Shown here piece by piece: positions 25,579-36,382 of a stretch of DNA of 37,900 nucleotides. Source of the DNA: Bacteroidia bacterium (GTDB taxonomy: Bacteria > Bacteroidota > Bacteroidia > Flavobacteriales_E > Vicingaceae). Where the stretch lies: the NCBI GenBank assembly GCA_030426475.1, contig JAUHYR010000019.1:1-37900 (forward strand), read 5' to 3'. The translations under genes were made by a program, and so were the position numbers. Position 1 is the first letter of the stretch, and each line of letters begins with the position of its first letter. Under the pieces are notes generated by a model. That model saw only the letters and a list, made by a program, of their open reading frames with translations. It was not told where the DNA came from and ran no database searches.

Positions 25579-25703
25579 GAATACTAGTCTAATTTATTTA
25601 TGGTATTGAATTCCTAATAGATGCCATTCAGTTCATCTTATTGCCTCTTACATTAATTTCTTGCCATTTAATTAAACAGTTGGCTTATTTTATATTAGGC
25701 TGT

Positions 25704-25711
25704 TATCTTTG
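25704..25711 (+). promoter_or_regulatory. -7 element TATCTTTG for the tolC-like gene
   Basis: It is an exact TAnnTTTG match ending 10 nt before the ATG at 25722; GTTG about 21 nt upstream may be a weak -33 element. It lies inside the longer open frame that begins at a TTG at 25641, which argues for the ATG at 25722 as the true start. Confidence 0.5.
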
Positions 25712-25721
25712 TAAGGTGAAA

Positions 25722-27146
25722 ATGTCTGCACTAAAGAAAAATAGCTTTTTGTTGTTATTGATGATAATTCCTTTTTTAGGAATTGGTCAAGGAGAGTGGA
25801 CATTGCAGAAATGTATTGATTATGCTTTAGAGAACAACCTTACACTTAAGCAAACTATTTTGGCAAGTGATATCGCCAAAGAAAATTTTTCAAGGTCTAA
25901 AGCTGTTTTATTACCAAGTGTAAATGGCTTTGCTTCTCATACATATAATTTTGGGCAAACCATAGACCCGTTTACCAATCAATTTGCTTCTTCACGTGTG
26001 AGGTCAAATAATTTTGCTTTACAAGCCAGTTGGACTTTGTTTAGCGGACTTCAAAATTTTAATAACTTAAAGCAAAACCAGTACAATTACTTAGCATCAA
26101 TGTATGATATTGAGAAAATGGAAAACGATATTTCAATGAATATTGCCCTTTCATATATGAATGTTTTGTTTGCAGAAGAACAATTAGAGCTTAGTCGTCA
26201 GCAACTAGAGTTATCTAAAAAACAAGTTGAGAGAACAACGGAACTAGTTGCCGTTGGAACACTCGCTAAAGGAGAATTACTTAACATCGAAGCACAATTA
26301 GCTAATGATGAAGTAAGCCTTATTAATGCAGAGAATCAGCTAAATATGGCTTATCTAGACTTAATTCAGCTACTTCAGCTAGAAAGTGGTAATGAGTTTA
26401 AAATTGTTAGTCCGGACTTTGAAATGATTGAAGCTGATTTTGAATCTGTATCAACCATTAAAATTTACGAAAATGCCTTGGTTAGTTTACCTCAAATTAA
26501 AAGTTCTGAAAATAAGTTGGCTGCATCAGAAAAAGCTATGCAATCTGCAAAAGGCGGATTTGTTCCTAGGATAAGTTTAAACGCATCTGTAGGAACCGGA
26601 TATTCTGGTTTAGCTAAAGAAATAGAAAGCGTTTCATTTAACGGTTATGATACTATTGGATTTACTCAAACTACTTTTGAAACCGTGCTAACCCCATCTT
26701 ATGATATTATTCAACGAAATATTTCATTTCAAGACCAGCTAGACAATAATTTTAATCAATCGGTTGGTGTAACTTTAAATGTTCCTATTTTTAATGGATG
26801 GCAAACGAAAACAAACTATAAAATAGCAAAAATTAATACAGATATTCGAACATTAGAACTTCAGCAGGCAAAAAACCAGTTACAACAAGATATTCAAAAA
26901 GCATACAATGATGCTGTCGCGTCATTAAAAAAATATAAAGCCACTGAAAAATCCATTAAAGCATCAGAAGAAGCATTTAAATATACTGAAATAAGGTTCC
27001 AAGAAGGATTGATAAATTCTGTAGATTTTGCTAACGCTTTAAATCAATTAAATGTTGCTAAGAGTGAGCGACTTCAATCTAAATATGACTTTGTTTTTAA
27101 AACAAAGATTTTGGAGTTTTATCAAGGCAAAGAATTAAAATTCTAA
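25722..27146 (+). CDS. TolC family outer-membrane efflux protein
   Basis: A TolC-type channel protein of about 474 residues from the ATG at 25722 (the open frame reaches 25641). The signal peptide is FLLLLMIIPFLGIGQG. The family start EWTLQKCIDYALENNLTLKQ follows. Long amphipathic helices with heptad-like Leu/Gln/Lys (ELSRQQLELSKKQVERT and LQQAKNQLQQDIQKAYNDAV) form the two coiled-coil halves of the periplasmic tunnel, each followed by an outer-membrane strand region. It should form a trimer that carries small molecules or peptides out of the cell. The adaptor gene follows 3 nt after the stop, so the two make one export unit; an inner-membrane pump is not encoded next to them. Confidence 0.92.
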   Translation: MSALKKNSFLLLLMIIPFLGIGQGEWTLQKCIDYALENNLTLKQTILASDIAKENFSRSKAVLLPSVNGFASHTYNFGQTIDPFTNQFASSRVRSNNFALQASWTLFSGLQNFNNLKQNQYNYLASMYDIEKMENDISMNIALSYMNVLFAEEQLELSRQQLELSKKQVERTTELVAVGTLAKGELLNIEAQLANDEVSLINAENQLNMAYLDLIQLLQLESGNEFKIVSPDFEMIEADFESVSTIKIYENALVSLPQIKSSENKLAASEKAMQSAKGGFVPRISLNASVGTGYSGLAKEIESVSFNGYDTIGFTQTTFETVLTPSYDIIQRNISFQDQLDNNFNQSVGVTLNVPIFNGWQTKTNYKIAKINTDIRTLELQQAKNQLQQDIQKAYNDAVASLKKYKATEKSIKASEEAFKYTEIRFQEGLINSVDFANALNQLNVAKSERLQSKYDFVFKTKILEFYQGKELKF

Positions 27147-27149
27147 AAC

Positions 27150-28448
27150 ATGAAAGGAAAAAAAGTTATATGGATTTTAGTTGGAGTAGTTGCTCTTTTA
27201 ATTTTAATAGCAATTATTAAGAAAAGTACTTCCAAAGAAAAAATAGTTGTTTATACCGAAAAGATAAGTAAAAGAAGCATTACTGAAACTATTTCTGCAA
27301 GCGGGAAAATAGAGCCTGTAACTGAAGTAAAAATTAGCTCGGATGTTTCCGGTGAGGTGATAGAAATTCATGTGAAAGAAGGGCAAAAAATTAAAAAAGG
27401 AGATTTGTTGCTTAAAATAAGACCTGATGTCTATGAGTCAGCTGTGGAAAGGGCGGAAGCTAATTTAAATAATATTAAAGCCAATTTAGCCAATAGCAAA
27501 GCAAGGTTAATCCAAGTTAAAGCTCAGTACGATAATGCAAAAAAATCATTTGACCGAAACAAAACACTTCATGAAAAAAAAGCAATTTCTGATGCAGAAT
27601 TTGATAATGCTTTAGCAAGTTTTAATTCTTCAAAAGCAGAATTTGAAGCGGCAGAACAAACTGTTATTGCAGCTGAGTTTAGTGTGCAAAGTGCTTACGC
27701 TACACTTAAAGAAGCCAAAGAAAACCTTGGAAAAACCGTTATCTATGCTCCGAGCGATGGGACCATATCTAAATTAGATATTGAGGTTGGAGAAAGAGTA
27801 GTAGGAACATTACAAATGGCCGGAACCGAACTATTGAGAATAGCCGATTTACAAAACATGGAATCTAATGTTGAAGTAAACGAAAATGATATTGTAAAAG
27901 TTTCTATTGGAGATACAGCAGTAATTGAGGTAGATGCATATTTAAGCAGACAGTTTTTTGGCGTAGTTACCGAAATTGCAAATTCTGCTAAAACAGATGG
28001 TATGAACATGGATCAAGTAACCAATTTTGAAGTGAAAATTAGTGTACTTCCTTCTTCTTACGAAGACTTAATTGATAAAGAAAAACCACATCTTTCTCCT
28101 TTTAGACCGGGAATGTCTGCAACTGTAGATATTAAAACTGACCATAAAAAAGGAATTCCATCTATTCCTATTCAGGCTGTTACTATGAGAGTGGATACGG
28201 CAGTTGAAAAATCAAAACAAAATGAAGCGGAAATGAAAGAATGTATTTTTGTGGTGGAAGACGGAAAAGCAAAAATTCGTTATATAAAAACTGGTATTCA
28301 GGATACAGAGTATATAGAAGTGATAGAAGGTGTGCAAGAAGGTGAAGAAATTGTGGCAGGTCCTTATGCTGCTATTTCTAAAAAAATAGAACACAATAAA
28401 TATCTTGAAATAAAAGATAAAGAAAGACTTTACGATAAAGAAGATTAA
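27150..28448 (+). CDS. Periplasmic adaptor of an efflux pump (HlyD/MacA type)
   Basis: A 432-residue membrane-fusion protein. A membrane anchor lies at about 4-24 (VIWILVGVVALLILIAI). The lipoyl-like half-motifs are VTEVKISSDVSGEVIEIHV and KTVIYAPSDGTISKLDIEVG, with a coiled-coil hairpin between them (about 95-190, Ala/Lys/Glu-rich). A beta-barrel part (NMESNVEVNENDIVKVSIGD) and a membrane-proximal part (EEIVAGPYAAISKKI) follow. The layout is that of MacA-like adaptors used with ABC pumps such as MacB. It is co-transcribed with the tolC-like gene, but the next gene is tsaB instead of a pump. Confidence 0.92.
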   Translation: MKGKKVIWILVGVVALLILIAIIKKSTSKEKIVVYTEKISKRSITETISASGKIEPVTEVKISSDVSGEVIEIHVKEGQKIKKGDLLLKIRPDVYESAVERAEANLNNIKANLANSKARLIQVKAQYDNAKKSFDRNKTLHEKKAISDAEFDNALASFNSSKAEFEAAEQTVIAAEFSVQSAYATLKEAKENLGKTVIYAPSDGTISKLDIEVGERVVGTLQMAGTELLRIADLQNMESNVEVNENDIVKVSIGDTAVIEVDAYLSRQFFGVVTEIANSAKTDGMNMDQVTNFEVKISVLPSSYEDLIDKEKPHLSPFRPGMSATVDIKTDHKKGIPSIPIQAVTMRVDTAVEKSKQNEAEMKECIFVVEDGKAKIRYIKTGIQDTEYIEVIEGVQEGEEIVAGPYAAISKKIEHNKYLEIKDKERLYDKED

Positions 28449-28457
28449 GCCTACCTC

Positions 28458-29144
28458 TTGTCACTAATTCTTCATATAGAAACTGCTACTCAAAACTGCT
28501 CGGTTAGTTTGTCAGATAACGGTAAACTGTTAGCTTTAAAAGAAGAAACAGGAAAATACACTCATGCCGAAAACCTAAGTCTTTTTATCAAAAGTATTCT
28601 TGAAGAATCTGGAGTTGAGTTTAAACAATTAAGTGCTGTTTCGGTGAGCAAAGGGCCGGGTTCTTATACCGGTTTGCGCATAGGGGTTTCTTCTGCTAAG
28701 GGAATTTGTTTTGCACTAGATATTCCTTTAGTTTCTGTGGATACTCTTAAAAATATGACCAACGGAGTTGTTTTACAAGGCATAGAAGCAGACTTATATT
28801 GCCCGATGATTGATGCACGTAGGATGGAAGTGTATGCAGAATTATTCGATAAAAACTTGAATGTTGTCAGAAAAGTAAATGCCGATATTGTTAATGAAGA
28901 AACATACAGTAAGTTTTTAAAAGCGAAAAAAGTTTGCTTTTTTGGAGACGGGATGACAAAATGTAAAGAACTACTTTCATCTTTTGATAATGCAATTTTT
29001 GTTGAAAATATAGAACCTTCGGCTAAGCATATGGTAGAATTAGCTACAGATAATTTTTTGCGAAAAGAGTTTGAAGATGTTGCCTACTTTGAACCTTATT
29101 ATTTAAAAGATTTTATAGCAGGAAAACCTAAAAAATTACTTTAG
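28458..29144 (+). CDS. tsaB: tRNA threonylcarbamoyladenosine biosynthesis protein TsaB
   Basis: A 228-residue ASKHA-fold protein. The N-terminus ILHIETATQNCSVSLSDNGK and the motif VSKGPGSYTGLRIGVSSAKG are typical of TsaB (YeaZ), the dimeric scaffold that works with TsaD and TsaE to make t6A37 in ANN-decoding tRNAs. It has no kinase or carbamoyl-transfer activity of its own. The start is TTG at 28458, 9 nt after the adaptor stop; no ATG or GTG is suitable and the family begins here. The DUF4296 gene follows closely. Confidence 0.93.
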   Translation: MSLILHIETATQNCSVSLSDNGKLLALKEETGKYTHAENLSLFIKSILEESGVEFKQLSAVSVSKGPGSYTGLRIGVSSAKGICFALDIPLVSVDTLKNMTNGVVLQGIEADLYCPMIDARRMEVYAELFDKNLNVVRKVNADIVNEETYSKFLKAKKVCFFGDGMTKCKELLSSFDNAIFVENIEPSAKHMVELATDNFLRKEFEDVAYFEPYYLKDFIAGKPKKLL

Positions 29145-29152
29145 CTTTGTAT

Positions 29153-29548
29153 ATGTTGTTTCATAAAAAATATATAAAATCAAGCCTTAAGTTATTGCCA
29201 ATCTTAGTTTTATTTTACTCTTGTGAAGCAGAACCTTTAGAGCAAAATATGCCTAAAGACGCAGATATTGTTTCTGAAGAAAAGATGACCCAAATAATTA
29301 TTGATTTGAATTTAATTGACGGAGCCATCAAAGCTAATCGGCATAATATTGATTCTATCCATACCAATGCCTTTTTTGAATCGGTTTTAGAAAAGCACAA
29401 GCTTTCTGAAGAGCTATTAGATAAAAATTTAAAGTACTATACTCAACGACCCGATGAAATGGAACAAATCTATGAAAAAGCCATTGCCAAAATGACCGAA
29501 GAGCAAGCCAAATTAAATGAACATCCTTTATTGGAACAGGTTGATTAA
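29153..29548 (+). CDS. DUF4296 lipoprotein
   Basis: A small lipoprotein found in Bacteroidota. The signal is LLPILVLFYSC, with the lipid-bearing Cys 24 residues after the ATG at 29153 (an in-frame TTG at 29147 is the alternative start). The mature part matches the DUF4296 pattern: an acidic helix VSEEKMTQIIIDLNLIDGAI, then FFESVLEKHKLSEELLDKNL and YYTQRPDEMEQIYEKAIAKM. It is probably anchored in the outer or inner membrane; the function is unknown. It lies between tsaB and the histidine kinase gene, within 10 nt of each, so it is probably in the same transcript. Confidence 0.85.
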   Translation: MLFHKKYIKSSLKLLPILVLFYSCEAEPLEQNMPKDADIVSEEKMTQIIIDLNLIDGAIKANRHNIDSIHTNAFFESVLEKHKLSEELLDKNLKYYTQRPDEMEQIYEKAIAKMTEEQAKLNEHPLLEQVD

Positions 29549-29557
29549 ATAAACTCT

Positions 29558-31522
29558 ATGAAGTTTATAATTTTAATAGTATTAATAGTCATTTTTCAAG
29601 TTGAACTTTTTTCAAGCAATTTAAAAGATAGTTTATACTCAAGATTAACCACTGAAACCGTTGATTCAGTTAGAGCAGAAATATTAGAAGAAATTTTATA
29701 TGAATTGGCCGAAAAAATGTTTGGAAACTATATTCCAGAAAACAATGGTCGTTTAACAATATTTAATTCAAATGTTCTTAGTCAGGATGATAGTGTTTAC
29801 TATGAGTTTAAATATATTGTAGAGGAATTAAAGCGAATTAGAAGAAGAGAAAACAATCCTGACAACTTAATACGAATAATAAACATGGAAGCCTCCATGC
29901 ATATTAATAAACAAAATTTTTTACAGGCACTATACCTCTATAAACCTGTTTTAAACATTATTAAAAATGCGAGTGAGGAAAAAAGAATGATAGTATATAA
30001 CAATGTTGCCCATATCTATGGAAAAATAGGAGAGTATGATCAACAGGTTTTTTATATGGAAGAAGCATTAAAAATTTCAACTAAAAATGCAGATACTTCT
30101 GCTATTTTATTACATTATGATAATATTGGCCAGGCTTATAGATCGTTTGGAAATCTTAATTTATCAGACTCAATTTCTACTTGTTTATTAAAAATGGCTA
30201 GAAATATTAAAGATAGTTTGTGGATTGTTAGGGGGCTAAATCAATGGGCTATAACTAAAAGAAAATTAAGTCAATATGACCAGGCGGAAAAATTGTACAA
30301 TAATGCTTTACAAATTGCAAAACAAACAAAATACCTCAGCTCAATAATTGAAATATATGGAAACTTGTCAGTATTTTATAAGTATAAACAAGATTATCCA
30401 AAATCGATTAAATATATAGATAGTGCTTTAGCTTTAATACCAAATAGTAAAATTGAAAGTAAATTTCAACTATTAATTAATAAGGCTTTTGTACTTGCAA
30501 GTGATAATAAAACAGCTTTAGCTTTAAATCTTAATAAACAATTAGAACAATCTATTGATTCATTTAGTGGTAATCAAAATCACTTAATATCTATTTATAC
30601 AAACTATCAAAAAATATATGAGATAACTAAAGATTATAAAAAAGCATTAATATATTCACAAAAAATAAACTTAATTAATGACTCAATATTAAAAGTAAAA
30701 GAAAAAGCTAGGTTTTCTAATTTAATTATAGACTATGAAGTTGCAAAGAAGCAAGCCGAAGACGACCTCTTAAAAATAGAACTTACTGAAAACATTAGAA
30801 AAACAAATAATATTAAGTACATGTTTGTTTTTATAATGGTTATGATAATACTTGTTGGTTTATGGCTTTATAGTAGGTACAGAAATAAACTCAAAATCTC
30901 AGAAAAAAATAAATTTATTGAAAGACAAAAAGGGGTTATTGAAGGACAAGAGGCTGAAAAGAAAAGATACGCCTTAGAGCTTCATGATGGAATAGGGAGT
31001 GAATTATCTGCATTAAAAATGCAAATGAGCGCTACTAATAATAAGAGTTTAATCGAATACCAGAATAAACTATCACAGATTTGTTCAGATGTACGAAAAT
31101 TATCTCACAACCTTTATTCTCCGGCACTTTATGAATCATCACTATTAAGTGCTCTAGAATCTATCATTGCTAAACATAGGCAATCAACAAGTATAAGGTT
31201 TGATTTAAACATTTTTCCTGAAGAAGAAGTGGATAGCATAGATATAGAACATAAGCATCATATATATAGAATAGTACAAGAGGCATTATTAAACGCAGTA
31301 AAATATTCTAATGCTACACATATAAACATAGGCATATTATGTAATAACAAACTTCTATCTCTATGTATAGAAGATAATGGAATTGGCTTTGATGTTAAAG
31401 CCAGCAAAGAAGGAATTGGTCTTAAAAACATAAAAGATAGGGTTAAAACAATGAATGGAAAGCTTACTCTAGATAGTATTATGGATAAAGGCACAACATA
31501 TTTAATTGAGTTTAAAGTATAA
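29558..31522 (+). CDS. Sensor histidine kinase with TPR sensor region
   Basis: A 654-residue two-component sensor. A signal sequence (about 1-19) exports the N-terminal part, which contains tetratricopeptide-like helical repeats (for example AHIYGKIGEYDQQVFYMEEA and NLSVFYKYKQDYPKSIKYID). One membrane helix lies near 419-437 (MFVFIMVMIILVGLWLYSR), followed by a coiled coil. The HisKA_3-type dimerisation box ELHDGIGSELSALKMQM contains the phospho-accepting His476. The ATPase domain has N box EALLNAVKYSNAT (about 575), DNGIGFD (about 606) and GIGLKNIKDRV (about 618). This class pairs with LuxR-type regulators, and the next gene, 3 nt on, is one. The signal it senses is unknown. Confidence 0.92.
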   Translation: MKFIILIVLIVIFQVELFSSNLKDSLYSRLTTETVDSVRAEILEEILYELAEKMFGNYIPENNGRLTIFNSNVLSQDDSVYYEFKYIVEELKRIRRRENNPDNLIRIINMEASMHINKQNFLQALYLYKPVLNIIKNASEEKRMIVYNNVAHIYGKIGEYDQQVFYMEEALKISTKNADTSAILLHYDNIGQAYRSFGNLNLSDSISTCLLKMARNIKDSLWIVRGLNQWAITKRKLSQYDQAEKLYNNALQIAKQTKYLSSIIEIYGNLSVFYKYKQDYPKSIKYIDSALALIPNSKIESKFQLLINKAFVLASDNKTALALNLNKQLEQSIDSFSGNQNHLISIYTNYQKIYEITKDYKKALIYSQKINLINDSILKVKEKARFSNLIIDYEVAKKQAEDDLLKIELTENIRKTNNIKYMFVFIMVMIILVGLWLYSRYRNKLKISEKNKFIERQKGVIEGQEAEKKRYALELHDGIGSELSALKMQMSATNNKSLIEYQNKLSQICSDVRKLSHNLYSPALYESSLLSALESIIAKHRQSTSIRFDLNIFPEEEVDSIDIEHKHHIYRIVQEALLNAVKYSNATHINIGILCNNKLLSLCIEDNGIGFDVKASKEGIGLKNIKDRVKTMNGKLTLDSIMDKGTTYLIEFKV

Positions 31523-31525
31523 TTT

Positions 31526-32167
31526 ATGGAAAAGATTAATGTTGCAATTATTGATGACCATAAAGTTTTTGCTGACGGAGTAAAGCTAATTCTTTCCACA
31601 GAAGATAAGATACGAGTTGTTGCTGTTACTAATTCTCATATTGAATTATTGGAAGCGCTTCAAAACTTTTCTGTAAATGTTTTAATTACTGACATTAATA
31701 TGCCTAATTATAGTGGATTTAAACTAGTATCTGAAATAACCGAAAAATACCCTAATACAAAGACATTAGCTTTGAGTATGCATGATGAAACCTCAGTAGT
31801 ATCAAAAATTCTTAAAGCAGGAGCAATTGGTTATTTACTGAAAGATACTGATAAAGAAGAATTAATACAGGCAGTATATAAAATAGCAAACGGAGAAAAA
31901 TATTATAGTAATTCCATTAAAGAAGCTTTACTAGATAATTTATCTAAAAACGAAAACGAAATTTCAAAATTTAATATAAAACTTTCAGAGAGAGAAATAG
32001 AAGTATTAATGCTTATTGCCAAAGGGCTAACTCAACAAGAAGTTGCCGATAAACTTTTCATTAGCCCACATACTGTAGTTTTTCATAAAAGAAACTTATT
32101 ATCCAAGCTCAATGCAAAAAATGCAATTGAACTTATACAAAAAGCCATTGATTTAGGCTTTTTATAA
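31526..32167 (+). CDS. LuxR/NarL-type response regulator
   Basis: A 213-residue regulator. The receiver domain (about 1-120) has the acidic pocket IIDDHKVF (D10, D11), the phospho-accepting Asp56 in NVLITDINMP, and the later conserved Ser/Thr and Lys in ALSMHD and YLLKDTDKEE. The C-terminal LuxR-type helix-turn-helix (about 150-205) reads LSEREIEVLMLIAKGLTQQE then ISPHTVVFHKRNLLSKL. It is 3 nt after the histidine kinase gene, its obvious partner. The promoter region directly downstream, of a T9SS cargo gene, carries two related dyads that may be its binding sites. Confidence 0.94.
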   Translation: MEKINVAIIDDHKVFADGVKLILSTEDKIRVVAVTNSHIELLEALQNFSVNVLITDINMPNYSGFKLVSEITEKYPNTKTLALSMHDETSVVSKILKAGAIGYLLKDTDKEELIQAVYKIANGEKYYSNSIKEALLDNLSKNENEISKFNIKLSEREIEVLMLIAKGLTQQEVADKLFISPHTVVFHKRNLLSKLNAKNAIELIQKAIDLGFL

Positions 32168-32170
32168 AAA

Positions 32171-32190
32171 ACCTACATAATTATGTAGGT
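32171..32190. repeat. Perfect 20-bp palindrome after the response regulator gene
   Basis: ACCTACATAA is followed directly by its inverse, TTATGTAGGT. It begins 4 bp past the regulator stop. On the plus strand no T-tract follows, so it is not a good terminator for the regulator; on the minus strand it is followed by six T, so it could end antisense transcripts. The half-site CTACATAA recurs 25 bp downstream, which favours a protein-binding site. Confidence 0.6.
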
Positions 32191-32197
32191 ATTAAAA

Positions 32198-32213
32198 CTA
32201 CATAAATATATGT
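32198..32213. repeat. Second dyad with the CTACATAA half-site
   Basis: CTACATAA (32198-32205) repeats the half-site of the palindrome at 32171-32190. ACATA (32200-32204) and TATGT (32209-32213) form an inverted repeat with a 4-nt spacer. It directly abuts the candidate -33 element of the next gene, a usual place for an activator site. Confidence 0.5.
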
Positions 32214-32243
32214 TTTACAAAAGTACCAACCGCTATACTTTTG
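32214..32243 (+). promoter_or_regulatory. Promoter of the T9SS type A protein gene
   Basis: TTTA (32214-32217), an 18-nt spacer and TACTTTTG (32236-32243) followed by C. The -7 element is an exact match and the -33 has one mismatch, as expected for an activator-dependent promoter. The ATG is 23 nt downstream. Confidence 0.5.
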
Positions 32244-32266
32244 CTTCAAATTAAAAAATAAAAATT

Positions 32267-33655
32267 ATGAAAACACTTTTTAACTATTTTATTTTAATTA
32301 TGGCTTTAGGTATAAGCTCTAATATAAAAGCACAATATCAAACCATTGCAAATGGAAATTGGCATAGCTCTTCAACTTGGTTGAACGGAAACATTCCTCC
32401 AGCCACTATAATACCAGCTATTCAGGCAATAGATAGTATAACAATTAAACATGATGTATTGTTTGACAACAATCAAGAAGAACTTTATTTTGTAAAGAAT
32501 AAATTTTCAATCAACCAAGGAGCAAAGCTTACAATTACAAGTTTAGATACTTTTTTAACGGCACAACCTTCACCTTCAGATACTCCGACTTTTATAGTAA
32601 ACGGAGAATTAAAAATACAAAATAGAGCGGCATTTCAAACTAATATTGGCTCAGCAACCTATCAAAGAGTATTTTTTAATAATACTGTAATTGTTGAAAG
32701 TAGCAGTTTTTGCTGGATAATTAGTCACAAAGAGTTTAAGAATATAGGGCAAGTTTCAATGTTAGATTCGAACGATTTTAGAATAGTGGTAGAAGATAGA
32801 GGTAATGCCTTTCAATATGGAGATATTACAATTGGTTCTGGCAACTATTTTATTCTATCAACAAATGACGGAGATGTTCAAAACAAGGCAACTATTTCTT
32901 CTATTAATGATAATCAAATTTCCATTTCATCAGGAAATACAGGAAATATAATAAATTATAAAAAAGTATTGTCTTCAGGAACAAATACTATGATAGATTT
33001 AATTGCAGAAAAAGGTAGTGTTTATAATTATGATTTAATCAATAGTCCTTTGGGTCCAATTACTATTGTTATAAATAATAAACTTAACTCAAATGACGGA
33101 TTAATTAATTCTACAAGTGGAGTTATACAGGGATCAACAGTGACAATTACAACAGGGAATGATACTACTCAAATTAGCAAGAATGATGGGGCAATTATTG
33201 GGGGAACAATTACATTAGATCATACATATTTTCAAGGCTTCGGTAATTTCTGTGCTCAATCAATGATAACAGTAAGTGAAAGTAGTATTACAGGAAATCT
33301 TGATTTATGTTCAACTAACTTTGGTAGTTTCGGAATAATAAATGTATCTTCTTATATAGCTTCCTCTATTACAAACTGTCAAAAAGGAATTTGTACTTAT
33401 ACAGGAGTTAATGAAAATACAGTTACAACTGAAGTAAATGTTTACCCTAATCCTGCTAATGAGTTTATTAAAATTGAATCACTAAACAAAATACATTCAA
33501 TATCTATTTACAATTCGTATGGACAAGAAGTTCTTTATAATGAAATAAATTCAACATTCAAGCAAATCGGTTTAGGAGAATTGTCTCCAGGAATTTATTT
33601 ATACAAAATCAAAACTGAATTTGGCTATAACTCGGGAAGAATAGTAGTTCAATAA
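32267..33655 (+). CDS. Secreted protein with T9SS type A sorting domain
   Basis: A 462-residue protein. The signal peptide (about 1-22, ending SNIKAQ) is followed by NGNWHSSSTWLNGNIPPATI, a start common to Bacteroidota surface proteins with beta-helix or G8-like folds. The middle is rich in Asn, Thr, Ser and Ile, with alternating short strands (VINNKLNSNDGLINSTSGVI and similar), which suggests a right-handed beta-helix. The last 75 or so residues (VNVYPNPANEFIKIE, then GIYLYKIKT and RIVVQ) are a type A sorting domain. No catalytic motif is visible. It may be an adhesin or cell-surface fibre. The gene stands alone behind the two-component genes and ends at a strong terminator. Confidence 0.82.
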   Translation: MKTLFNYFILIMALGISSNIKAQYQTIANGNWHSSSTWLNGNIPPATIIPAIQAIDSITIKHDVLFDNNQEELYFVKNKFSINQGAKLTITSLDTFLTAQPSPSDTPTFIVNGELKIQNRAAFQTNIGSATYQRVFFNNTVIVESSSFCWIISHKEFKNIGQVSMLDSNDFRIVVEDRGNAFQYGDITIGSGNYFILSTNDGDVQNKATISSINDNQISISSGNTGNIINYKKVLSSGTNTMIDLIAEKGSVYNYDLINSPLGPITIVINNKLNSNDGLINSTSGVIQGSTVTITTGNDTTQISKNDGAIIGGTITLDHTYFQGFGNFCAQSMITVSESSITGNLDLCSTNFGSFGIINVSSYIASSITNCQKGICTYTGVNENTVTTEVNVYPNPANEFIKIESLNKIHSISIYNSYGQEVLYNEINSTFKQIGLGELSPGIYLYKIKTEFGYNSGRIVVQ

Positions 33656-33663
33656 TTTCTTAA

Positions 33664-33690
33664 AGAGAGCTCTATCAGAGCTCTCTTTTT
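33664..33690 (+). terminator. Intrinsic terminator between convergent genes
   Basis: AGAGAGCTCT (33664-33673) pairs perfectly with AGAGCTCTCT (33677-33686) around the loop ATC, followed by TTTT. It serves the T9SS type A gene, and since the TonB receptor gene ends at 33691 on the other strand, it probably also ends that transcript; on the minus strand the tail (TTTAAG) is weaker. Confidence 0.88.
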
Positions 33691-36003
33691 CTAAAATTCA
33701 AAGCTGACTCTTAAGCTAAAGTTTATCCCTTGCTCGTGAGCAAAATATCTTAAACGATTCATATAGTTTTTATAGCTTGTATTTAAGAGGTTTGTTATTC
33801 CTCCTGCGACTTTAAGTTTGTTTTTTCCAACTGAAATAGACGTGCCGTAATACAAACTAACTAGCGTATAATCTTTAGGAGAAGTAGTTAGTTCATTTCT
33901 TGAAAGATTACTTTTTTGAGTAACATGTACCACATTAAGTTGGAAATAACTTCCTCTCATCTTTTTGGAGTCGTTAAAAGAATACTCTAATGTATTATCA
34001 AATCTAGCAGGAGGTATAAGCGGCACAAAATCTTTAACAGTTTCGTTATATGCACTCACAAAACTTGCTTTTGTGGTAAGGCTTAATGATGGGGTAAGAT
34101 AATATCTTACAAACCCATTTATTCCACTGAGGTTTACATTACCACTTAAAAAATAGGATGTAAATAAAACGCTACTATCTTGAAAAGTTAATTTGGAAGT
34201 GTTGTCAATGTATACATAGTTTTTAATATAACTGTAAAAGCTATTCAGGTTAATGGTAATTTTTTCTTTTTGAAACTGTAACGAAAGGGATGAATTATAT
34301 GCAATCTCTTGTTTTAAATTAGGGTTTCCTATTTCAAACGAAATAGCACCAAAGTGCTCTCCATTACTAAATAATTCATAAGCAGATGGCGATCTCCATG
34401 CAGTTCCAAGATTGGTGATAACAGAAAAGCTATTTCCTATTTTTTGAGCCCAACCTAGAGTAGCAGCAACATTAGAAAATTGTCGGGTAAATTCTTCTGT
34501 TGTCGAATCAGATGTTTGTGCTTGAGCTTCTAAGTTTTTTATATCATATCTCACACCTGCTTCAATAAGCGTTTTATTTATTTTGTACTGATGAATAGTA
34601 AATATTCCTCCATTATTAGAATAGTAGTTAGGAATTAAGTATTCGTATTTACCCTTGTTTTCTTGATAAATACCATTCAACCCAAAAGCTGAGTTAAATT
34701 TTTTACTCCAGTCAATGGTATAGGAAATATCAAATTGGTGTGTAGATAAATTTAATTCTAATTCAGGTAATGTCTCATTTTCATGAAAATGTTCATCTTC
34801 ATTATGTTCACCATGAAACTCTTTTCTATTATTATTTTGATATGCGTAAAGAAAACTCAATTCTGATTTGTTGCCCAGTTTAAACTTAGCAGATGTTTTT
34901 ATAGCATCATGTTTAACCTTTTGCATAGGAGCATCAAAATGGTAATCAAAGTCAAATTTTTCTAAGGGTCTTCCTAACTCAAGCGCTTCGTTAAATTCAT
35001 TAATATTATCAAAATGAGCAAAAGAAAGAATCCCACTTTCTAAATTAAAAGAAGAGTAAAAAGCTTCTAGTTCAACTTTTTTTCTTTTAAAAACTGTTGT
35101 AAAAGTGTAGTTGTAATTAATACTTCCGGTATTATCTAAATAATAATCAGGTGTTCGCTGATTCCCACTTTTGTTATAACTTCCTGTGGCTCTCCAGCTC
35201 AGTCCTTTTGTCTTTTTGAATTGACCTTCAAGCATTCCGTTAGTTGTAACCCTATTACCATTGCTCTGAAAGCCAGAAAAAATAGTTCCATTGATTTCGG
35301 CTGAGTCGGGTAGTTCTTTTTGTTCTATTAAAATTACTCCACCTAACGCATCAGAACCATATCTAACACTGTTAGCTCCTTGAACAATTTGGATTTTTTC
35401 AATAGAAAAAGGATCTATTTCTGGAGTATGTTCTAACCCCCACTGTTGCCCTTCTTGTCTTATTCCGTTATTAAGAATTAAAACTCTATTACCATAAAGA
35501 CCATTTACTACCGGTTTATTAAAATTAGAACCTGAACTTATATTACTAACACCGGGCACATTTTCCATAGCTTTACCAATATCTGATATAGGTAGCTTAT
35601 TAATATCTTTCTTATCAATAGATAAAATAGTTTGAGGTGATAATTCTTTTGGTTTCTCCTCTATCACTTCCATTAAACCTAGCTCATGGGCATGATGCTC
35701 CGGATAAAAATTCAAAATAGTGTTTCCTTTTACCTCTACTTTTTGAATAACAGGCTCACAGCCAATATGAGTAATGATTACTTTGTATTTTCCATCACAT
35801 ATATTCTTAATGTGGTAGTTGCCTTCTACATCTGAGGCGGCTCCTTTCTTTAATTCTTCTATATAGATGGTAGCATAAGCAAGAGGCTCGTTATTATGTT
35901 CATCCAGTATTTTTCCGCTTAAAGAGGAGTTACAATTGTTTTGTTTCTGTGCTATAATTAGAAAACTAACTAGCATCAAAAACAACGTTAAAAAACGTTT
36001 CAT
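33691..36003 (-). CDS. TonB-dependent outer-membrane receptor with His clusters
   Basis: A 770-residue receptor. After a signal peptide (about 1-18) a carboxypeptidase-regulatory-like domain (about 25-105, LSGKILDEHNNEPLAYATIY) precedes the plug (about 120-225; NVPGVSNISSG, IQIVQGANSVRYGSDALGGV) and a 22-strand-type barrel ending INFSLRVSFEF. Two His-rich spots are seen: EHHAHE just before the plug (about 100-106) and HGEHNEDEHFHE (about 396-408), in a loop of the barrel. Such loops occur in zinc-uptake receptors like neisserial ZnuD. With the His-rich secreted protein upstream, a metal substrate (zinc, copper or nickel) is likelier than a sugar; no SusD partner is present. Substrate is inferred. 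Confidence 0.88.
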   Translation of the reverse strand: MKRFLTLFLMLVSFLIIAQKQNNCNSSLSGKILDEHNNEPLAYATIYIEELKKGAASDVEGNYHIKNICDGKYKVIITHIGCEPVIQKVEVKGNTILNFYPEHHAHELGLMEVIEEKPKELSPQTILSIDKKDINKLPISDIGKAMENVPGVSNISSGSNFNKPVVNGLYGNRVLILNNGIRQEGQQWGLEHTPEIDPFSIEKIQIVQGANSVRYGSDALGGVILIEQKELPDSAEINGTIFSGFQSNGNRVTTNGMLEGQFKKTKGLSWRATGSYNKSGNQRTPDYYLDNTGSINYNYTFTTVFKRKKVELEAFYSSFNLESGILSFAHFDNINEFNEALELGRPLEKFDFDYHFDAPMQKVKHDAIKTSAKFKLGNKSELSFLYAYQNNNRKEFHGEHNEDEHFHENETLPELELNLSTHQFDISYTIDWSKKFNSAFGLNGIYQENKGKYEYLIPNYYSNNGGIFTIHQYKINKTLIEAGVRYDIKNLEAQAQTSDSTTEEFTRQFSNVAATLGWAQKIGNSFSVITNLGTAWRSPSAYELFSNGEHFGAISFEIGNPNLKQEIAYNSSLSLQFQKEKITINLNSFYSYIKNYVYIDNTSKLTFQDSSVLFTSYFLSGNVNLSGINGFVRYYLTPSLSLTTKASFVSAYNETVKDFVPLIPPARFDNTLEYSFNDSKKMRGSYFQLNVVHVTQKSNLSRNELTTSPKDYTLVSLYYGTSISVGKNKLKVAGGITNLLNTSYKNYMNRLRYFAHEQGINFSLRVSFEF

Positions 36004-36038
36004 GATAATTTTGATTTTAGTTTATGACTTAAAATTTT

Positions 36039-36055
36039 AACTCAAGAATTGAGTT
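36039..36055. repeat. Hairpin between the His-rich protein and the receptor genes
   Basis: AACTCAA and TTGAGTT are inverted repeats with a 3-nt loop. It lies 9 nt past the stop of the small gene and 35 nt before the receptor start. An overlapping 12-bp palindrome (TTAAAATTTTAA, 36029-36040) follows on the minus strand. It may adjust the ratio of the two products by partial termination or mRNA processing, or be an operator. Confidence 0.35.
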
Positions 36056-36064
36056 TGCTTAAGG

Positions 36065-36382
36065 TTAAACTAAAGGTGGTGCTCGTAAACTTTTGAGGGA
36101 AATTGTATTTTGGTGAGGAGAAGAAATTACTTTTTTTGATGGTAATACAGTAGTAATTTCTTGGGAGATATTTTGATTAGAAAAATCTATTGAAAATGTT
36201 TCAAAATGAAAATCACAAATAGTACAATCTTCATCTTCAGCATTTTGATAGTTACTTTCATAATCACTATGAATTTCAGTATGCTCGTGATGATGGAAAG
36301 ACTTAATGGGAAGAATAACAAAGGAAAATACTGCCAGCAAAAGACTGGATAACAGAACTCTATATGTATTAGTTGTTCTCAA
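36065..36382 (-). CDS. Small secreted His-rich protein with CxxC
   Basis: A 105-residue protein. The N-terminal signal sequence (VLLSSLLLAVFSFVILP) is followed at about residues 30-39 by HHHEHTEIH and at about 53-60 by CTICDFHF. Clustered His plus CxxC right after an export signal points to metal binding in the periplasm or on the membrane. I know of similar small proteins next to TonB receptors in Bacteroidota but cannot name a family. The start appears to be TTG at 36382; no in-frame ATG gives a signal peptide. The gene is 61 bp upstream of the receptor gene on the same strand, and 12 bp after the SDR gene. A -7 element overlaps the SDR stop codon. Confidence 0.7.
   Translation of the reverse strand: MRTTNTYRVLLSSLLLAVFSFVILPIKSFHHHEHTEIHSDYESNYQNAEDEDCTICDFHFETFSIDFSNQNISQEITTVLPSKKVISSPHQNTISLKSLRAPPLV

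Follow-up and report, generated by a model that had tools for sequence, protein, structure and literature searches.

Paired dyads between a response regulator gene and a T9SS cargo gene: a predicted operator conserved at three Bacteroidia loci

The window, the whole stretch of 37,900 nucleotides of a Vicingaceae genome (Bacteroidota) that was analysed, contains a run of six genes separated by short gaps only (25641 to 32167). These encode efflux outer-membrane and adaptor proteins (assigned by eye), TsaB, a DUF4296 protein, a sensor histidine kinase and a response regulator. In the Pfam search of its translation the kinase (29558–31522, plus strand) shows TPR_12, HisKA_3 and HATPase_c domains, the TPR part lying N-terminal to a hydrophobic segment judged by eye to be the membrane segment. 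The regulator (31526–32167, plus strand) is of the NarL/FixJ type, with a Response_reg receiver (PF00072, E 2e-25) and a C-terminal GerE helix-turn-helix (PF00196, E 4.6e-19) whose recognition helix reads HTVVFHKR. The next gene (32267–33655, plus strand), the predicted target, encodes an exported protein with a T9SS type A C-terminal sorting domain (PF18962/TIGR04183, 42.7 bits against a cut-off of 27). The Pfam domains and the C-terminal tail agree with the preliminary description, which had placed a LuxR-type regulator with its TPR kinase upstream and a T9SS surface protein downstream. No full-length relative of the cargo body was found in 60 genomes, no known domain was detected in it, and a single-sequence structure model was poor (pLDDT 44) and all-beta. 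A hairpin with a 12-bp stem (33662–33688), probably a shared terminator, separates the cargo gene from a convergent gene for a TonB-dependent receptor. The receptor, which has weak heme/ZnuD-like matches below cut-offs, lies beside a small histidine-rich protein on the minus strand (33691–36382), and the two are possibly a metal-uptake pair.

A gap of 99 bp separates the regulator stop (32167) from the cargo ATG (32267), and it contains two dyads. Direct reading of the sequence confirms a perfect 20-bp palindrome, ACCTACATAATTATGTAGGT, at 32171–32190, beginning 3 nt past the stop. Dinucleotide shuffling of the gap produced arms of at least 10 in 4 of 5000 trials, and just two perfect palindromes with 10-bp arms occur in 340 kb of the same genome. 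The core of the palindrome, CTAC-N8-GTAG (32173–32188), is the distal dyad. After a 9-nt spacer, GTATTAAAA (32189–32197), follows the proximal dyad CTACATAAATATATGT (32198–32213), CTAC-N8-ATGT, which adjoins the −33 region and is imperfect, with inner arms ACATA/TATGT. The half-site described earlier as common to both dyads was verified: CTACATAA recurs at 32198–32205, 25 bp beyond its first copy. The same description had placed the dyads on one face of the DNA, but 25/10.5 gives 2.4 helical turns and not 2.5, so the two do not share a common face. A fortuitous palindrome and repeat in an A+T-rich gap would draw on the fact that 8-mer repeats and weak dyads are frequent in such gaps. Repeated 8-mers with at least two G/C were present in 4 of 53 comparable gaps, and perfect palindromes in general are not enriched in the own-genome sample. 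A dyad with 5-bp arms, the strength of the proximal one, appeared in 4069 of 5000 shuffles (81%). Because dyads so weak arise often by chance, the proximal dyad alone meant little; its significance comes from its conservation across loci.

The dyads are followed by a promoter. A −33-like TTTA (32214–32217, plus strand; three of the four letters of TTTG) abuts the proximal dyad and lies 18 nt before an exact −7 box, TACTTTTG (32236–32243, plus strand), with a predicted transcription start at 32248. Both elements are where they had been described. The promoter call is sound, since the −7 consensus TAnnTTTG is enriched ahead of genes in this genome (40 of 140 regions, against 15 antisense and 9 reversed). 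With the −7 box set at −12 to −5 (PMC9723704), the predicted centres of the proximal and distal dyads are −42.5 and −67.5, the latter becoming −68.5 at the related loci described below. These predicted positions resemble those at NarL/LuxR activator promoters. Within 32218–32243, CAAAAGTA and TACTTTTG also form an inverted pair, in which a −7-like box on the minus strand is directed towards the cargo promoter. A divergent promoter was considered for this arrangement and rejected, as the genome sample shows no enrichment of pairs of this kind.

Homologues and motifs were sought in up to 395 genomes of the class, and two relatives proved informative. The best regulator homologue among 60 relatives is that of G041 (44% identical to the window regulator), and the four residues D10, D11, D56 and K106, which include the phospho-acceptor aspartate and the acidic pocket, are conserved between the two. 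A profile built from both regulators and run against 395 genomes brought out the regulator of G139 at 321 bits, the next best match being a G041 paralogue at 249 bits. The relatives come from two families, neither of them that of the window. The three regulators share the recognition helix HTV[V/I]FH (HTVVFH in the window and G041, HTVIFH in G139), which is absent from the other 50 of 53 homologues. A DNA pattern search for HTVVFH across the 395 genomes found no regulator beyond those of the window and G041, its four further matches being out-of-frame coincidences. All three regulator genes are preceded by a histidine kinase and followed by an exported-protein gene. In G041 the order is kinase, regulator and same-strand T9SS cargo (sorting domain, 50.8 bits). 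In G139 a signal-peptide-like start is visible in the gene after the regulator, which the contig end cuts before the region where a T9SS tail would lie.

The relationship among the three systems is otherwise loose. The kinases of the window and G041 are only ~29% identical, and the regulator tree joins G041 with G139 (100/96) without placing the window regulator with them; a grouping of all three is not rejected (AU p 0.41). No close kinase orthologue was found in 46 family genomes at thresholds of 1e-60 to 1e-80, the tsaB locus has no kinase within 1.5 kb in 29 relatives, and a genome-contig search with the window regulator gave two matches, both to distant regulators. The window and G041 cargoes align essentially over the sorting tail alone. 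Their bodies are not homologous, that of G041 being an NHL propeller. In G041 the genes downstream of the regulator (L118:2674-6066) lie on one strand and encode this NHL-propeller cargo, a small outer-membrane beta-barrel and an RCC1-repeat T9SS cargo, possibly a co-regulated display operon.

The conservation evidence comprises these three loci. A first, free-ended pairwise test of the window and G041 gaps was suggestive (p about 0.025 to 0.1). A 26-mer test after that comparison used ends picked once the match was seen, and the case rests on the three-locus tests. The G139 locus serves as an out-of-sample test, because it had been selected on protein similarity before the sequence of its gap was looked at. 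An unsupervised search of both strands of the three gaps returned as its best 24-bp block CTACATAATTATGTAGGTATTAAA / CTACCCTTTTGTGTAGGTCTTAAA / CTACCTATTTGTATAGTTTTCAAA, which coincides with the window palindrome and its right flank; the same block appears in a MAFFT alignment. Its score of 41.9 compares with 19.4 ± 3.4 for shuffles (0 of 3000 as high) and with 18.0 ± 4.1 for triples of other regulator-downstream gaps (maximum 36.2; 0 of 1487 reaching 41.9). Leave-one-out matrices recover every site at 0.0005 to 0.0009 expected matches per gap. Trained on G041 and G139, the matrix finds the window site (0.0009 expected in the gap); trained on the window and G041, it finds the G139 site (0.0006).

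The geometry of the element is also conserved. The first base of CTAC is 63, 64 and 64 nt away from the −7 box in the window, G041 and G139, whereas CTAC lies 5, 40 and 45 nt from the regulator stop and the ATG 23, 58 and 78 nt from the −7 box. A constant distance to the −7 box and a variable one to the stop tie the element to the promoter. When the CTAC-N8-GTAG template of the first dyad was tried at every position upstream of the −7 box, it matched best at an offset of 38 nt at all three loci. The sites at this offset are the proximal dyads CTACATAAATATATGT, CAACCTTTTCAGGTGG and CCATACTTATAGGTAG, which occupy the same 16-bp frame and match 17 of 24 template letters; the corrected chance of the coincidence is about 5e-5 (0 of 4000 shuffles). 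The one-base shift of the distal dyad among loci falls entirely within the inter-dyad spacer, which has 9 nt in the window and 10 nt in G041 and G139. With conservation at a fixed promoter distance at three loci, and this independent test of the second dyad, a chance origin of palindrome and repeat is very improbable. No −33 box can be recognised in the G041 or the G139 gap, which is what would be expected if these promoters depend on an activator. The G139 dyads (L145) are part of an imperfect inverted repeat of 42 bp, CTACCTATTTGTATAGTTTTC / AAAAACCATACTTATAGGTAG (17 of 21 positions paired, by eye), centred on an A/T spacer, with the appearance of two operators facing each other.

The position of the palindrome first made a terminator of the kinase/regulator operon the favoured explanation, because hairpins in this genome cluster just past stop codons: of the 22 intergenic hairpins in the own-genome sample, 14 begin no more than 40 nt from a stop, a zone holding 13% of intergenic space (p 4e-8). 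The hairpin formed by the palindrome has just this placement, and the fold that includes the second dyad reaches −10.9 kcal/mol (z −2.7). The palindrome might thus act in RNA, where it would either form an intrinsic terminator for the upstream operon or stabilise the 3' end of its transcript as a hairpin, or else stop transcripts of the minus strand and so protect the regulator gene from antisense transcription; a T tract is present on the minus strand, where alone it resembles a terminator. However, the plus-strand tail, ATTAAAAC, is not T-rich and lacks the T tract of an intrinsic terminator on the coding strand. Hairpin strength is not conserved either (−9.5, −5.2 and −2.2 kcal/mol; z −5.1, −0.65 and −0.38 at the three loci), and it is the distance to the stop that varies and the distance to the promoter that does not. 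Loss of hairpin energy with retention of half-sites and promoter spacing argues that the shared constraint is on the DNA. The operon terminator was rejected on this comparison of geometry and energy, and an RNA element of any of these kinds seems distinctly improbable as the function of the palindrome, which may, in the window only, also serve secondarily as a terminator. A search of Rfam gave nothing at gathering level, and a weak match to a family of viral RNAs, below threshold, was taken as chance.

The motif was not found in 49 other regulator gaps, where the best score was 6.5 against 33–40 at the three loci. The exact 16-mer has a single copy in the genome, and a search of 395 class genomes gave no other. 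Further CTACATAA dyads, for which the preliminary description had suggested a scan of the genome, did not exceed control level, so the element is apparently a dedicated local operator and not a regulon motif; the dyad pair looks like a one-target switch. A conserved cargo-promoter operator could nevertheless be bound by a global factor or by another regulator, its adjacency to the regulator gene being incidental. The genome encodes further LuxR-type regulators, and binding by the adjacent one is itself a prediction. Against this, motif and rare helix occur together at three loci, and 968 kb of the same genome (about a third) contain no other site at which the motif is combined with a suitably spaced −7 box, where a global factor should have comparable sites. 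As the cargo bodies differ, the regulator is the constant partner, and a different binder is considered unlikely. A separate dyad, TACATAAATATCTTATGTA (L116, about 1501; G000:C59:21916-21934), lies just ahead of a short gene with a PadR-type-like product (by eye) and overlaps a −7-like TATATTTG; it is possibly an autoregulatory operator unrelated to the kinase/regulator system.

The two dyads are therefore best described as a predicted paired operator of the adjacent upstream response regulator, which would switch on the T9SS surface protein, and this reading is considered likely. The earlier proposal of a candidate operator for the adjacent two-component system gains support from the two relatives: both dyads recur there at a fixed distance from an exact −7 box, flanked by a regulator with the same rare helix and by an exported-protein gene. 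Recurrence at the same promoter distance in two distant relatives makes it very probable that the dyads are the sensor's switch for the neighbouring surface protein. In the mechanism suggested by this arrangement, the probably periplasmic TPR domain of the kinase would sense a signal and the kinase would phosphorylate the regulator. Regulator dimers would bind the strong distal dyad (32173–32188, centre about −67.5). They would also bind, in a probably cooperative manner, the weaker proximal dyad (32198–32213, centre about −42.5), which is set against the poor −33 element. The bound regulator would then help sigma-A RNA polymerase to start at about 32248, and the surface protein would be made. 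A proximal site at −42.5 beside a poor −33 element, with a stronger distal site, fits activation, which we infer in preference to repression. Several observations count against the operator: the dyads lie on roughly opposite faces of the DNA, making a dimer–dimer contact less simple, and the divergence of the kinases, the separation of the window regulator in the tree and the terminator-like minus strand of the palindrome weigh on the same side, as does a comparison of three loci, in one of which, G139, the cargo gene is truncated.

The non-homologous cargo bodies imply either a cassette that has swapped its cargo or convergent wiring with a common type of regulator. A speculative and rather unlikely extension is a cassette with exchangeable cargo, in which a constant set of kinase, HTV[VI]FH regulator, promoter and double CTAC-N8-GTAG operator would be combined with displayed bodies that are swapped, the periplasmic TPR domain perhaps sensing the T9SS tail or the transiting cargo. 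If true, such sensing would close an export-feedback loop. The loci also offer a case in which sensor, operator and promoter are conserved and a different surface protein is displayed. For Bacteroidota there appear to be few descriptions of operators used by NarL-type regulators that are paired with TPR kinases; in the literature on them, FimR binding at mfa1 was found, with no defined dyad. The present loci provide a specific predicted operator whose spacing follows rules and which is linked to a helix that can be recognised, and regulator–target pairs could therefore be predicted elsewhere.

Several known systems share features with the one described here. The centre of the lux box, a dyad of 20 nt, lies 42.5 nt upstream of the start (PMC7585371). 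LuxR and the window regulator share the GerE-type DNA-binding domain, a 20-nt dyad and a site at −42.5, but LuxR is an acyl-homoserine-lactone receptor and not a phosphorylated response regulator, and in the window the perfect 20-bp dyad is the distal site, whereas the lux box itself occupies −42.5. The ends of the window palindrome, ACCT...AGGT, also resemble the lux box. DevR (DosR) promoters of Mycobacterium tuberculosis have paired, closely packed boxes that are bound cooperatively, the proximal one overlapping −35 (PMC3029386). DevR likewise belongs to the NarL family, and its closely packed pair with a start-proximal member at the −35 region recalls the window dyads, but it works with another sigma factor and promoter type and controls a large regulon, compared with the one local target seen here. 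The DevR box sequence also differs from the window dyads. Two-component signalling is tied to a T9SS C-terminal-domain protein in PorXY-SigP with PorA (PMC7712824). PorXY-SigP controls genes of the T9SS machine, whereas the window system has one cargo. PorX is not known to be a GerE-type DNA-binding regulator. In Porphyromonas gingivalis, FimS, a kinase with a periplasmic TPR region, and the regulator FimR, which binds and activates the mfa1 promoter, form a further such pair (PMC1974823, PMC11053733). The window kinase scores 58 bits against the FimS equivalog NF053520, whose cut-off is 600, and the FimS/FimR target is fimbriae and not a T9SS cargo beside the regulator. The likeness lies in the design, a TPR kinase and a regulator acting on the promoter of a surface structure in the Bacteroidota.
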